Below, piece by piece: positions 13,444 through 20,040 of a stretch of 64,000 nucleotides of DNA; position 1 is the stretch's first letter; each line of letters starts with the position of its first letter. The stretch comes from Levilinea saccharolytica (GTDB lineage: Bacteria > Chloroflexota > Anaerolineae > Anaerolineales > Anaerolineaceae): NCBI RefSeq assembly GCF_001306035.1, contig NZ_LGCM01000038.1, positions 62,001 to 126,000 of the forward strand, read 5' to 3'. The notes beneath the pieces were generated by a model. It made no database searches, was not told the origin of the DNA, and was given only the letters and a program-made list of their open reading frames with translations. A program made the position numbers and the translations under genes.

Positions 13444-13514
13444 TGGGGCGTGGTGCAATGGCAGCACACCAGACTTTGGATCTGTGGATCTTGGTTCGAG
13501 TCCAGGCGCCCCAG
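13444..13514 (+). tRNA. tRNA-Gln (UUG anticodon)
   Basis: 71-nt cloverleaf. The acceptor stem TGGGGCG pairs with CGCCCCA, the D stem GTGC with GCAC, and the T stem CTTGG with CCAGG around TTCGAGT. The anticodon loop CTTTGGA (13474-13480) places TTG at 13476-13478, which reads CAA (and CAG by wobble). The discriminator base is G. CCA is not encoded. One mismatch sits at the outer pair of the anticodon stem. Confidence 0.92.
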
Positions 13515-16682: not shown

Positions 16683-17447
16683 ATGGCTGAGCGCGAACGC
16701 TCGCTGCGGACCGAAGGGGTGGTACTGCGCCATTCGGATTGGGGCGAGGCCGACCGCCTGGTGATCCTCTTCACCCGCGAACAGGGCAAGCTGCGCGCGG
16801 TGGTGAAGGGTGCGCGCAAGCTGCATTCGCGCAAGGCCGGGCACATGGAGCCCTTCACGCGCGTGTCTTTGATGTTGGCGCGCGGGCGCGATTTTTGGAT
16901 TGTGACCCAGGCCGAGACGGTGGATGCCTATCTGCCGCTGCGCGAAGATCTGGTGCGCACGGCCAGCGCCGCCTATGTGGTGGAGCTGTTGGACCGCTTC
17001 ACCTATGAAGAGGGGCAAAACCTGGGGCTGTACCAGCTGCTGGTGGAAAGCCTGCACCGCCTGTCCAGCGTAGATGCGCCGCAGACGGTGCTGCGTTTTT
17101 ATGACCTGCGCTTGTTAGACCTTTTGGGCTTTCGCCCGGAATTATACGAGTGCGTACGCTGCCGCCAGCCTATTCAGGACGAGGATCAGTTCTTTTCACC
17201 CCAACAGGGCGGGGCGCTTTGCCCGCGCTGCGGCCGCCTGGAGCCGGGGCTTTGGCCGCTTTCGCGCCGGGCGCTGAAAATGCTGCGGTTTTATCAGCGC
17301 AGTACGTATGCCCAGGTGCGCAGCGCGGCTTTTTCGGCGGCTTCGCACGCCGAAATGGAGGGGGTGATGCAGGCGTACTTCACCTATTTATTGGAACGCA
17401 CGCTGAACACTCCGGGCTTTTTGCGCACGGTGCGGCGCGGGGCTTAA
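16683..17447 (+). CDS. recO: DNA repair protein RecO
   Basis: 254-residue recombination mediator that works with RecR to load RecA on gapped DNA. The N-terminal OB-fold reads EGVVLRHSDWGEADRLVILFT and GKLRAVVKGARK. The middle carries a zinc finger (CVRCRQPI, then CPRCG). Length and order are normal for RecO. The ATG follows GAGGCGGG and lies 18 bp after cdd. Confidence 0.92.
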   Translation: MAERERSLRTEGVVLRHSDWGEADRLVILFTREQGKLRAVVKGARKLHSRKAGHMEPFTRVSLMLARGRDFWIVTQAETVDAYLPLREDLVRTASAAYVVELLDRFTYEEGQNLGLYQLLVESLHRLSSVDAPQTVLRFYDLRLLDLLGFRPELYECVRCRQPIQDEDQFFSPQQGGALCPRCGRLEPGLWPLSRRALKMLRFYQRSTYAQVRSAAFSAASHAEMEGVMQAYFTYLLERTLNTPGFLRTVRRGA

Positions 17448-17456
17448 ACACAACCA

Positions 17457-17490
17457 GCGCGCAGGCCGGAAACAGCTCCAACCTGCGCGC
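17457..17490. terminator. hairpin between convergent recO and isochorismatase-family genes
   Basis: 9-bp perfect stem GCGCGCAGG / CCTGCGCGC with a 16-nt loop. Neither side has a good T-run, so termination is only suggested by its place between convergent genes. Confidence 0.35.
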
Positions 17491-17517
17491 CAGCGCGGTT
17501 TATCTTAGGGGGCAGCG

Positions 17518-18228
17518 CTAGCGAATGGCGCGCACCACTTCCATGCCGTTCAGAGCCATGTGATACAAGAACACTGCGTGCAGCAGATCGGCAGGGTGCG
17601 CCCAGCCGCCCTGGGCGCGCGCGTCTTCCAGGGGTCGGTCGTAGGTGTCTACACATTCGGCAGGGATGATCACTCGCCAGGGACGCTGGTAGGCGTTGGC
17701 GCTCAGGCGGATGTGCATGGCCAACTGGTAGGTGCACAAATCGGTGCAGTCGCCCACCACAATGAAGGTATCCAGTTCCGGCCGCTCGGCCAGCCAGGCA
17801 TCCAGGCCGGTATTGAGGGCGGGATGGATGGAATTTTTGGGCAGGACGGTCATGTGCGGGTAGAAGGGCAGGCGGCGCAGGGCTTCCACCGTTTCGGATT
17901 CGTGCGAACCGCGCACGCAGTGGGCCGGCCAGGCGCCAAATTCCACCGCGTTCTCTTCGTGCGTATCCTGCAGCAGGGCGATGTGGCGCAGTCCGGCATC
18001 CCAGACGGCGCTCATCAACTGGGCGATGGGGGGCACAATGCGGCCCACGCGCGGGCTGGCCAGGCTGCCGCTTTCGCAGAAGCCGCTGATCACATCCACC
18101 GAAAGGACGGCAGCGCGTTGGGGGTGGGGCAGGGCCTCGTTCACCGGTAGGTTGGGGAGGGATTCGAGCCAGGTTTGCAGGTCATCCAGAAAGGGCTGGG
18201 CGCCGGCGGCAAGGGACGAGTTGGTCAT
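17518..18228 (-). CDS. isochorismatase/nicotinamidase-family cysteine hydrolase
   Basis: 236-residue cysteine hydrolase. The catalytic triad is visible: D45 in VLSVDVISGF, K131 in LPKNS, and C165 in GDCTDLCTYQLA. The family hydrolyses amides such as nicotinamide, or related C-N bonds. An N-terminal extension of about 38 residues precedes the core. The ATG is preceded by AGGAG. A consensus promoter and two matching inverted repeats lie directly upstream, so the gene is probably tightly repressed. Nicotinamidase is one candidate; substrate unproven. Confidence 0.82.
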   Translation of the reverse strand: MTNSSLAAGAQPFLDDLQTWLESLPNLPVNEALPHPQRAAVLSVDVISGFCESGSLASPRVGRIVPPIAQLMSAVWDAGLRHIALLQDTHEENAVEFGAWPAHCVRGSHESETVEALRRLPFYPHMTVLPKNSIHPALNTGLDAWLAERPELDTFIVVGDCTDLCTYQLAMHIRLSANAYQRPWRVIIPAECVDTYDRPLEDARAQGGWAHPADLLHAVFLYHMALNGMEVVRAIR

Positions 18229-18240
18229 GGGGGTCTCCTA

Positions 18241-18257
18241 TGTGTAAAAAATACACA
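18241..18257. promoter_or_regulatory. operator-like inverted repeat O1
   Basis: Perfect TGTGTA-N5-TACACA repeat with an A-rich centre, 12 bp upstream of the isochorismatase-family start codon and just before its ribosome site. It has the same GTGTA-N5-TACAC architecture as O2. Confidence 0.6.
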
Positions 18258-18273
18258 AATTGATGGGTGAAAG

Positions 18274-18293
18274 AAAAGCGGTTGCCCGCTTTT
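18274..18293 (-). terminator. terminator-like hairpin in the leader of the isochorismatase-family gene
   Basis: AAAAGCGG / CCGCTTTT is an 8-bp perfect stem with a 4-nt loop; on the - strand it ends in CTTTTCTTTC. It could end transcripts of the upstream methyltransferase gene. It also lies inside the predicted leader of the isochorismatase-family gene, so attenuation is possible. Confidence 0.5.
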
Positions 18294-18308
18294 GTGTAAA
18301 TCTTACAC
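18294..18308. promoter_or_regulatory. operator-like inverted repeat O2
   Basis: GTGTAA-ATC-TTACAC, which contains GTGTA-N5-TACAC exactly as in O1. It covers the predicted transcription start of the promoter at 18310-18338. Its centre is 52 bp from that of O1, about five helical turns. Confidence 0.6.
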
Positions 18309-18309
18309 T

Positions 18310-18338
18310 ATTATATCTATTCCGCATCGGCCTGTCAA
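18310..18338 (-). promoter_or_regulatory. consensus sigma70 promoter for the isochorismatase-family gene
   Basis: On the - strand: TTGACA (complement of 18333-18338), 17-bp spacer, TATAAT (complement of 18310-18315). It is a full consensus match, with the -35 overlapping the last bases of the methyltransferase gene. Confidence 0.85.
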
Positions 18339-19183
18339 GGGGTTGGGGAAAATCCAATCCATTCGATATCTGGCACATGCGCAAAACGCCGCGCCATCGT
18401 TTCCAGGGCCTGGGGGTTGTTATCCACCAGCCAGAACTGCCGGCCCAACTGCAAACAGCTTTCGCCCAGGGTGCCGCTGCCCGCGAAGAAATCCATGACC
18501 ACGTCGCCGGGGTTGGATGAGGCGCGCACAATGCGGTTGAGGACGCCCAGGGGCTTCTGGGTGGGGTAGCCGTTGCGCTCTTTGCTGTTGGTTCCCACGA
18601 TGGTGTACCACCAGGTATCCGTGGGGAGCTTGCCGCGCGCGGCTTTTTCTGGCCCCACCAAGCCGGGGGCCATATAGGGTTCGCGGTCAATATCTGCAAC
18701 GTTGAAGGTATAATGCTGCGGGTCTTTGACGTAGAAGAGGATGTTGTCGTGCTTGGCGGGCCAGCGGTTTTTCGGCTTGCCGCCGTAATCGTAGGCCCAG
18801 ATGATCTCGTTCAGAAAACAGTCGCGCCCAAAGAGCGCATCCAGCCAGATTTTGCAGTAATGCACTTCGCGGTAGTCAATGTGAAAATACAGGCTGCCGT
18901 GGGGGGCCAGCAGGCGGTACGCCTCTTCCAGGCGCGGGCGGATGAAACTTTCGTAATCCTCAAACCAATCGGCGTATTGGCGGGTGGCCAGGGTTTCGGT
19001 GCGGTAGGTGCTGCCCTGAAAGCCGGTACGGTCGCCCTGGGGGTCGCGCACGGTGCGAATTTGGGTGCGGGCCTGCTGTTTGCCGGAATTAAAGGGAGGG
19101 TCTATGTAGATCAGGTCCACGCAGCCCGCCGGAAGGGAGCGCAGGATGGGTAAATTATCGCCGAAGTAGATGCGGTTGGGCAT
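18335..19183 (-). CDS. site-specific DNA methyltransferase (beta class, N6-adenine or N4-cytosine)
   Basis: 282-residue N6_N4_Mtase-family enzyme. The catalytic motif IV (DPPF, residues 28-31, in YIDPPFNSGK) precedes the SAM-binding motif I (DFFAGSGTLGES, from residue 231), which is the beta-class order. DPPF favours adenine-N6 methylation but does not prove it. No restriction endonuclease or specificity gene is nearby, so this looks like an orphan methyltransferase. It is divergent from the dimethylargininase gene. Confidence 0.87.
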   Translation of the reverse strand: MPNRIYFGDNLPILRSLPAGCVDLIYIDPPFNSGKQQARTQIRTVRDPQGDRTGFQGSTYRTETLATRQYADWFEDYESFIRPRLEEAYRLLAPHGSLYFHIDYREVHYCKIWLDALFGRDCFLNEIIWAYDYGGKPKNRWPAKHDNILFYVKDPQHYTFNVADIDREPYMAPGLVGPEKAARGKLPTDTWWYTIVGTNSKERNGYPTQKPLGVLNRIVRASSNPGDVVMDFFAGSGTLGESCLQLGRQFWLVDNNPQALETMARRFAHVPDIEWIGFSPTP

Positions 19184-19214
19184 GCCCTGATTTTAACATG
19201 CTTTTGGCAGGCCG

Positions 19215-19242
19215 TTGACTCTGTTGGGGTTTTCGCTATACT
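19215..19242 (+). promoter_or_regulatory. promoter for the dimethylargininase gene
   Basis: TTGACT (19215-19220), 16-bp spacer, TATACT (19237-19242); predicted start near 19249, about 33 nt before the ATG. Confidence 0.65.
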
Positions 19243-19281
19243 CATGGGTAGACACGGTTATTTTCCATCTGGGAGGTTTTC

Positions 19282-20040
19282 ATGTTTACACAGGTGATAG
19301 CCCGCCTGCCGGGAGCAGATTTTGCCAAGGGGTTAACGACAGCCGCTTTGGGCGCGCCGGATTACAACTTGATCATGCAGCAGCATGCGGATTATCTGCA
19401 CACCTTTGAGCGGCTGGGCATCGCCGTTACCCTGCTGCCGGCCCTGCCGGGGTATCCGGATGCCTATTTTGTGGAAGATACCGCTGTGGTCACGCCCGAA
19501 CTGGCGGTGATCGCGCGTCCAGGGGCGGCGGCCCGGCAGGGGGAAGAAGACAGCATAGAGCCGGTGTTGGCTCGCTTTCGTCCCACGGTGCGCATTGAGT
19601 CGCCGGGAACGTTGGACGGCGGAGATGTGTTGATGGTGGAGCGCCATTTCTTTATCGGCGTGTCGGAGCGCACCAACGCTGAGGGCGCGGCTCAGTTGGG
19701 TGCTTTTTTGGAGCCGCACGGCTACACCTGGCAGGCGGTTCCGGTGGCGGCGGGCTTACACCTGAAATCATCGGTGACGTATGTGGGCCAGAACACGCTG
19801 CTGATCACGCCCACCTTTGCAGACCGCCCTGAATTCGCAAATTATGCCCGGCTGGTGGTGCCCGCGGAGGAAGAATATGCGGCCAATACCTTGCTGGTCA
19901 ATGAACACCTCATCACCCCGGCGGGGTTCCCGCGCACGCGCCACCTGCTGGAAACGCTGGGGTATCCCGTGATTGAACAGGCGGTGAGCGAGCCGCGCAA
20001 GATGGACGGCGGGCTGAGCTGTATGACGCTGCGGTTTTAA
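19282..20040 (+). CDS. dimethylargininase / amidinotransferase-superfamily hydrolase
   Basis: 252-residue protein of the DDAH branch of the amidinotransferase superfamily. It hydrolyses methylated arginine (or a related guanidino compound) to citrulline plus an amine. The N-terminal half carries FVEDTAVV; the catalytic H160 is in GLHLKSSVTYVG and the nucleophile C247 in DGGLSCMTLRF at the extreme C-terminus. Length is standard for bacterial DDAH. The ATG follows GGGAGG. It is a single-gene unit with its own promoter. Confidence 0.87.
   Translation: MFTQVIARLPGADFAKGLTTAALGAPDYNLIMQQHADYLHTFERLGIAVTLLPALPGYPDAYFVEDTAVVTPELAVIARPGAAARQGEEDSIEPVLARFRPTVRIESPGTLDGGDVLMVERHFFIGVSERTNAEGAAQLGAFLEPHGYTWQAVPVAAGLHLKSSVTYVGQNTLLITPTFADRPEFANYARLVVPAEEEYAANTLLVNEHLITPAGFPRTRHLLETLGYPVIEQAVSEPRKMDGGLSCMTLRF

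Follow-up and report, generated by a model that had tools for sequence, protein, structure and literature searches.

Several described systems come close to the locus analysed here, and NrtR regulons, repressor roadblocks and attenuators are all already known. In the NrtR regulons of M. smegmatis, S. sobrinus and S. oneidensis, a regulator of the NrtR type likewise uses palindromic operators at NAD promoters, and in the NrtRs studied so far ADP-ribose releases the repressor (excerpts of PMC6800001 and PMC12735969). The mycobacterial and streptococcal motifs in the excerpt of PMC6800001 are unlike the GTGTA-N5-TACAC palindrome found here, and these excerpts describe no hairpin and T-tract followed by a second operator, such as are present here. 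BtAraR of Bacteroides, a member of the NrtR family and the best structural match to our candidate regulator, has operators in tandem, separated by 3 or 42 nt; it is an arabinose regulator, and the excerpted text mentions neither a hairpin nor a T-tract (PMC4666351). With LacI, CcpA, CodY, and C.Kpn2I, a protein bound downstream of the promoter blocks elongation; the portions available (PMC4132739, PMC6237814) attribute release to Mfd or Rho and say nothing of a terminator upstream of the operator. Attenuators that use an intrinsic terminator, such as the trp leader, likewise place a hairpin and U-tract in the leader, ahead of the gene. However, we see no competing antiterminator here, and the switch that we propose is a downstream DNA-bound protein.

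A further parallel lies outside bacteria, in eukaryotic RNA polymerase I (Pol I). According to the excerpt of PMC12366685, this polymerase halts in T-rich non-template sequence, 15 bp short of Reb1, and the roadblock acts jointly with that stretch and a hairpin. Terminators of this type (Reb1/Nsi1/TTF1) thus resemble the leader described here in combining a DNA-bound roadblock, a T-rich element, and an upstream RNA hairpin. In the same excerpt, however, the distance from the hairpin to the 3′ end is 20 nt and the polymerase has to backtrack, whereas here roughly the length of a U-tract separates the stem base from the predicted stall; the polymerase and the protein also differ, and metabolite control in our case is a conditional proposal. 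Among the matches listed in our literature search, the texts as excerpted contained no operator behind a leader terminator and no NrtR sites in Chloroflexota. RegPrecise 3.0 includes a Chloroflexi collection that, judging from its excerpted description, may list NrtR (PMC3840689), and the operator assignment in this phylum may already be catalogued there.

The pncA-like gene, its promoter and its leader

The window, a 64,000-nt stretch of the Levilinea saccharolytica genome, carries on its minus strand a gene for a 236-aa protein of the isochorismatase fold (17518..18228; PF00857, 9.3e-15). Scored with the named nicotinamidase model, this product reaches 22.7 bits, where the cut-off is 174. 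We infer a nicotinamidase-type salvage enzyme (pncA-like) because the operator is common to a pncB-like gene and because of the arrangement in genome G009, where a pncA homologue lies directly 3′ of a gene whose end, by eye, resembles the pncB-like protein. All leader features given below are on the same strand. The −35 hexamer TTGACA (18333..18338) and the −10 hexamer TATAAT (18310..18315), read from the sequence and found by a promoter scan, are separated by 17 nt and carry 12 of 12 consensus bases, so that the earlier note was right to call the promoter perfect. Scanning 17400-19400 gave 2 promoter-like sites, against 0.6 expected. The upstream methyltransferase ORF (18335-19183) ends with a TGA stop codon that sits within the TTGACA hexamer.

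Two exact copies of GTGTA-N5-TACAC follow. Operator 1, GTGTAAGATTTACAC (18294..18308), starts one base past the −10 hexamer and, in line with the earlier note, would cover the transcription start, which from the spacing is expected at about 18302-18303; relatives carry the operator at the same position. Operator 2, GTGTATTTTTTACAC (18242..18256), is the proposed roadblock site and lies directly 5′ of the ribosome-binding site AGGAG (18235..18239), beside which its sequence also folds as a small RNA hairpin. The centres, 18301 and 18249, are 52 bp apart, again in agreement with the note. When up to two mismatches are allowed, the window holds 15 matches to the palindrome, against 6.65 expected, and none of 100 shuffles reached 15.

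Between the operators lies the hairpin that the note had recorded (18274..18293), with eight pairs, AAAAGCGG/CCGCTTTT, and a 4-nt GCAA loop. The 33-nt fold has an energy of −10.9 kcal/mol (z −4.6), and none of 200 shuffles was as stable. The GC portion of the stem ends 21 nt 5′ of operator 2. The T-tract TTTTCTTT (18270..18277) overlaps the A-T part of the stem and ends 13 nt before operator 2 (spacer 18257..18269, read from the sequence); as it comes after the hairpin, the hairpin is terminator-like. The U-tract is interrupted, with only 4 T within 8 nt past the full 8-pair stem, and a plain terminator scan did not include this hairpin among its terminators. We rejected a role in terminating upstream transcription, as the hairpin lies downstream of the promoter and, in the leaders compared, the sense strand carries the T-run. 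At 17453-17498, between the convergent ORF 16683-17447 and the pncA-like gene, both strands also show terminator-like hairpins.

The 4.23-Mb genome holds three exact copies of the palindrome, namely the pair in the window and one at C45:161057-161071 (L046), 25 nt before the start codon of the pncB-like gene. This gene encodes a 447-aa nicotinate phosphoribosyltransferase-like protein, for which the matched models score below their cut-offs, and TTGACA and TATAAT stand immediately upstream of its operator. By number there is no excess, since the reversed control pattern occurs exactly five times. With at most one mismatch, 25 real sites (3 exact and 22 with one mismatch) compare with 143 for the reversed control, so the one-mismatch sites are mostly noise. 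What is unusual about the exact palindromes is their locations, not their number. The combination of promoter and operator at the start occurs at exactly two places in the genome, the pncA-like and pncB-like genes, and the reversed control gave none. Among ten regions taken from the 25 sites, promoter, operator, and NAD gene came together only at the exact pncB-like site, and the nine others, judged by eye, lacked the combination. The claim of a strong promoter, apparently under repressor control, at a salvage gene is supported, and the repeats are conserved in relatives.

Geometry of the double-operator leaders

A search of 400 genomes of the order for operator pairs, blind to the content between them, gave 19 matches in 16 genomes; the reversed control gave 12 matches in 5 of the 400 genomes, 8 of them in one genome. 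Sixteen of the 19 (including G165:C239) have the layout promoter, operator 1, leader, operator 2, gene, which is absent from G077:C37, G077:C94, and G165:C180. Of these 16 leaders, 13 contain a clear hairpin 0-6 nt past operator 1; it is weak in G032 and missing in G004 and G374, which belong to the same family. The same search across the class matched 33 of 396 genomes, with 15 reversed-control matches in 13 genomes. These control matches mean that a single pair match is no proof, and we therefore relied on promoter, gene, and geometry. An RNA-model search of the class gave matches in 48 of the 396 genomes.

From these searches we assembled 33 distinct Anaerolineae double-operator leaders. 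They correspond to the 42 rows that passed the promoter and ORF filters, minus 10, plus L138. The rows left out were seven from a scan of the genome_contigs collection that were not taken as Chloroflexota (L246, L248, L258, L259 twice, L264, and L265), a simple repeat (L298), one with a different layout (L312), and one on the plus strand in the wrong orientation (L278); L253, from that same scan, was retained because it is the same element as L272 (G751). L026, L270, L274-L276, L279, L310, and L311 are not among the 33, having failed the filters on account of their gap, contig end, promoter, or operator. Pairs spaced by 37-39, with operator 1 inside the −35/−10 region, were also excluded; this second layout, in which operator 1 apparently lies between the two hexamers, is seen in G727, G629, G741, G647, G765, and G568. 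The RNA model R1 favours hairpins; all 33 leaders match the content-blind operator-pair pattern.

A sense-strand T-tract lies 12-20 nt before operator 2 in 29 of the 33 leaders. By the threshold of at least 6 T in 9, which 29 leaders pass, 300 rounds of shuffled gaps gave a mean of 2.9 and a maximum of 8, and for a GC hairpin with its base 19-22 nt before operator 2, found in 20 of the 33, they gave a mean of 0.3 and a maximum of 3. When the leaders are aligned on operator 2, T occupies position −11 in 1 of 33, −12 in 24, and −14 and −15 in 31 each; the T columns run from −12 to −21, and upstream of −21 C dominates. For L147, L148, and L305, the automatic windows chose another T-rich stretch, and by eye the T-tract ends 11, 13, and 11 nt before operator 2. 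A hairpin of −5 kcal/mol or better is present in 21 leaders; in 20 of these, 19-22 nt lie between its outer G-C pair and operator 2. The remaining 12 of the 33 lack a hairpin of that stability. A further leader, L278, has its best hairpin at another position. The distance from the T-tract and the hairpin base to operator 2 is thus nearly fixed, while the gap between the operators varies from 29 to 48 nt (sd 4.2; up to 56 in other leaders).

The sequences of the stems vary while their pairing is retained. Among 22 hairpins, the second pair inward from the outer G-C is C-G in 12 and G-C in 10, a comparison that is not a homology alignment. In a MAFFT alignment of 16 sequences (A1), 74% of the cells are paired, a value reached by 11 of 500 shuffles and compared with 63.5% for the best slid register, and 5 of the 6 pairs show changes on both sides. 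The covariation score was reached by 9 of 500 shuffles, and the five observed values by 9 to 28 of 500. Because related genomes are non-independent, the shuffle figures, here and for the leader geometry above, overstate the significance. The true register exceeds every slid register on all five measures, the structure having been chosen from the same sequences. We regard the covariation as moderate.

This geometry bears on the looping at a fixed five turns that had been suggested for the window. Two-site repression by NrtR through looping or cooperative binding would treat the T-tract as a bent A-tract and the hairpin as incidental or a spacer. The two equal palindromes of the window leader are indeed about five turns apart, and A-tracts bend DNA, which could help such a loop. 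A scan of the genome_contigs collection for exact operator pairs gave 107 stretches, and the 80 listed among them (L160-L239) include many from Bacteroidota, with paired sites ~46-57 bp apart. However, the variable gap in the 33 leaders means that there is no fixed helical phase, and spacing in whole helical turns is not kept among them. The T-tract, moreover, is confined to the sense strand before operator 2, the mirrored A count at operator 1 being at most 4 of 9, and the GC hairpin, where present, stands further from operator 2 than the end of that tract by one U-tract length. We rejected five-turn looping as the main reading because of the variable spacing, and we consider two-site repression in this wider sense unlikely. 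A roadblock combined with a terminator appears, from the anatomy, to fit better than looping over a fixed length.

A proposed roadblock terminator

From the observed anatomy, conservation, geometry, recurrence, and co-occurrence with NrtR (see below), a sequence of binding, stalling, termination, and effector relief can be proposed. We think it somewhat probable that NrtR blocks transcription twice, at operator 1 by preventing initiation and at operator 2 as a roadblock that switches a weak terminator on, and that ADP-ribose relieves both. NrtR bound at operator 1 would block initiation, and a polymerase that escaped would meet NrtR at operator 2 and stall ~12-16 nt upstream, a distance expected from the 25 bp covered by the AraR dimer (excerpt of PMC4666351). 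The RNA-DNA hybrid of the stalled polymerase would then lie on the U-tract with the hairpin just behind it, and the weak intrinsic terminator, aided by the stall, would release the transcript. When ADP-ribose rises, NrtR would leave, polymerase would read through, and the gene would be expressed. In leaders with a T-tract and no hairpin, the roadblock and the weak hybrid would act alone.

The expected stall falls inside the T-tract, with the stem base ~5-9 nt behind, an arrangement that would be near to the one usual in intrinsic terminators; as excerpted from PMC12366685, ~8 nt separate the hairpin from the 3′ end in bacterial termination. It is this near-match that led us to propose that NrtR at operator 2 turns a weak terminator on. 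Comparable distances are given for EcoRI E111Q, which stopped the polymerase when 12-13 nt still separated the active site from the first G of the EcoRI site, and the B. subtilis polymerase blocked by EcoRI remains bound and can restart (both from the excerpt of PMC3913778). As a blocked polymerase stays restartable, a roadblock alone need not free the RNA, and an adjacent terminator makes sense. Not every roadblock works, since in the Pol I study, as excerpted, release at a Lac repressor block proceeded only slowly, and LexA failed to bring about efficient termination where backtracking was needed (PMC12366685).

A plain roadblock at operator 2, with Mfd or Rho clearing the polymerase and with the hairpin and T-tract of minor importance or serving as an mRNA 5′ stabiliser, would be in line with the LacI and C.Kpn2I roadblocks and their clearance in the portions of PMC4132739 and PMC6237814 available, and leaders lacking a GC hairpin do exist. 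This reading nevertheless leaves unexplained the near-fixed position of the T-tract and the hairpin base at 19-22 nt, as well as the absence of both elements from 16 of the 18 single-operator leaders (10 pncA-like and 8 pncB-like). The two exceptions are L014, with a hairpin of −5.6 and no T-tract, and L028, with a T-rich 8-mer (at least 6 T). In the comparison of leader types, the L011 and L129 leaders were shortened by a spurious start codon. The hairpin and the T-tract thus go with operator 2, and we judge the plain roadblock improbable. As for the 5′ stabiliser, we rejected it because it would explain neither the U-tract nor its distance to operator 2.

We give still less credit to an RNA control independent of NrtR, either a riboswitch or a constitutive attenuator, in which the palindrome of operator 2 would act as the small RNA hairpin that it can form near the ribosome-binding site. 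The only match to Rfam 15 at gathering scores in the window was one distant tRNA (13444-13514). Moreover, the palindrome of operator 2 is the same as that of operator 1 and of the pncB operator, whose first halves would be untranscribed if transcription starts 7 nt past the −10 hexamer. With no Rfam match to the leader in the window, and no antiterminator pairing seen by eye, we rejected the riboswitch and regard this kind of control as a whole as very improbable.

If NrtR does switch the terminator as proposed, the NrtR of Chloroflexota would be a DNA-bound termination factor controlled by a metabolite, with a portable unit, composed of a hairpin, a U-tract, and an operator at near-fixed distances, used singly or, before nadA-like genes, in series, and with a counterpart in Pol I termination, a generalisation for which we see about even chances. 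The T-rich element at a near-fixed distance before a protein site, characteristic of the Pol I type, is present in the 33 leaders. Reb1 and TTF1 are Myb-like proteins, whereas Pfam finds only NrtR_WHD and AraR_C in the proposed roadblock. The unit would work like a Pol I roadblock terminator and is not a member of that group. If true, a single repressor would govern both initiation and termination, making the leader a compact switch with two stages built from a movable and repeatable unit, and bacterial repressors could be true termination factors rather than mere obstacles. The design rules would be simple, with the stem base ~20-21 nt and the last U ~11-13 nt before the operator.

The regulator and the genes behind the leader

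The earlier note left the regulator of GTGTA-N5-TACAC unnamed and advised scanning the genome for operators and matching them to repressor genes. From sequence comparisons, it can now be named as most likely NrtR, the Nudix-related repressor of NAD genes. The genome of the window (G000) has a single match to PF21906, the NrtR winged-helix domain, in a gene for a 215-aa protein at L113:5002-5646 on contig C14 (PF21906, 6.1e-27; AraR_C, 2.5e-14). Against solved structures, both of its domains match AraR (5bs6, 8.6e-29, the best) and 3gz5 (3.3e-24), which we take to be the S. oneidensis NrtR. Residues 13-204 align to AraR across both domains, and no Pfam Nudix domain is found at 1e-3. Within 8.1 kb around this gene there is no operator within one mismatch.

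Across genomes, the operator and NrtR go together. The winged-helix domain is present in 28 of 61 genomes, that of the window included. In the 30 genomes with a pncA homologue fetched, whose classes were assigned by eye, 16 have both operator and NrtR, 1 has the operator only (G022), 1 has NrtR only (G059), and 12 have neither (Fisher p 1.9e-6). In G059 the NrtR gene directly precedes the pncA homologue, and in G022 (L007, L136) the operators and hairpin are kept, yet NrtR was not found in the 92%-complete genome. NrtR was also found in 10 of 11 further genomes of the order set with operator matches (missed in G374), and in 29 of 33 genomes chosen from model matches, which comprise 22 of the 48 class genomes and 11 of the 13 phylum-set genomes, the latter outside the class (missed in G699, G412, G527, and G491).

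Since the NrtR operators of different lineages vary greatly (excerpt of PMC4666351), the identity of the regulator does not follow from the motif, and the palindromes might belong to another repressor that merely co-occurs with NrtR. Against this stand the co-occurrence just given, the position of the NrtR gene ~500 nt or less from the element in G083, G046, G441, G675, and G751, and the operator targets, of which most of the recognisable ones are NAD genes. In the relatives compared, the palindrome is conserved at the promoters of NAD genes. Among the Bacteroidota matches listed, several have, by eye, NrtR-like Nudix, nicotinamidase-like, NAD-type, or other genes downstream, and NrtR-type proteins of this second phylum thus seem to use the motif as well; the pair leaders among them have no comparable GC hairpin with T-tract. 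A different repressor therefore seems to us highly unlikely. The assignment to NrtR would supply a regulator and an operator for the NAD genes of Chloroflexota, many of which are known from metagenomes only.

The double-operator layout recurs in front of genes that are not homologous to one another, and many of these are NAD genes. Behind the 33 leaders are 15 pncA-like genes, 5 isochorismatase-like genes of another group, 5 radical SAM, 4 Band_7, 3 nadC, and 1 nadE, classes assigned by the start of the protein, with one or two of each checked. On the proteins tested, Pfam supports the nadC, nadE, radical SAM, and Band_7 assignments, and gives the second isochorismatase group 20.5 bits, below the cut-off. 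Double-operator leaders of the NrtR type are seen before Band_7 genes at L275, L178, L280, L305, and L269, and before radical SAM (HemN-like) genes at L276, L281, L282, L289, L144, and L145; Pfam covered L275, L269, and L276 among these loci. The Band_7 and radical SAM genes have no obvious role in NAD metabolism and are candidates for an NAD-linked function.

The unit also extends beyond the class. A search of the phylum gave model matches in 13 of 400 genomes, 11 of them outside the class, where the gene after the element is, by eye, nadA (L320, L321, L324, and L327), nadB (L328), nadC (L329), or a gene for a small membrane protein (L319, L322, and L323). The four nadA-like leaders each carry two units of hairpin, T-tract, and operator in tandem, with the operators 51-57 nt apart. 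An additional operator-like site lies at the transcription start in L320 and L324, and overlaps the −35 hexamer in L321 and L327. Their middle units lay outside what the model had matched as its second operator. Three of the four have the stem base 21-22 nt upstream of the operator, and all four have T at 7 of 9 positions. Taken over the 15 units outside the class, the stem base lies at 19-23 nt in 11 (by an automatic rule, two of the stems being weaker than −3 kcal/mol), and 10 have at least 6 T in 9.
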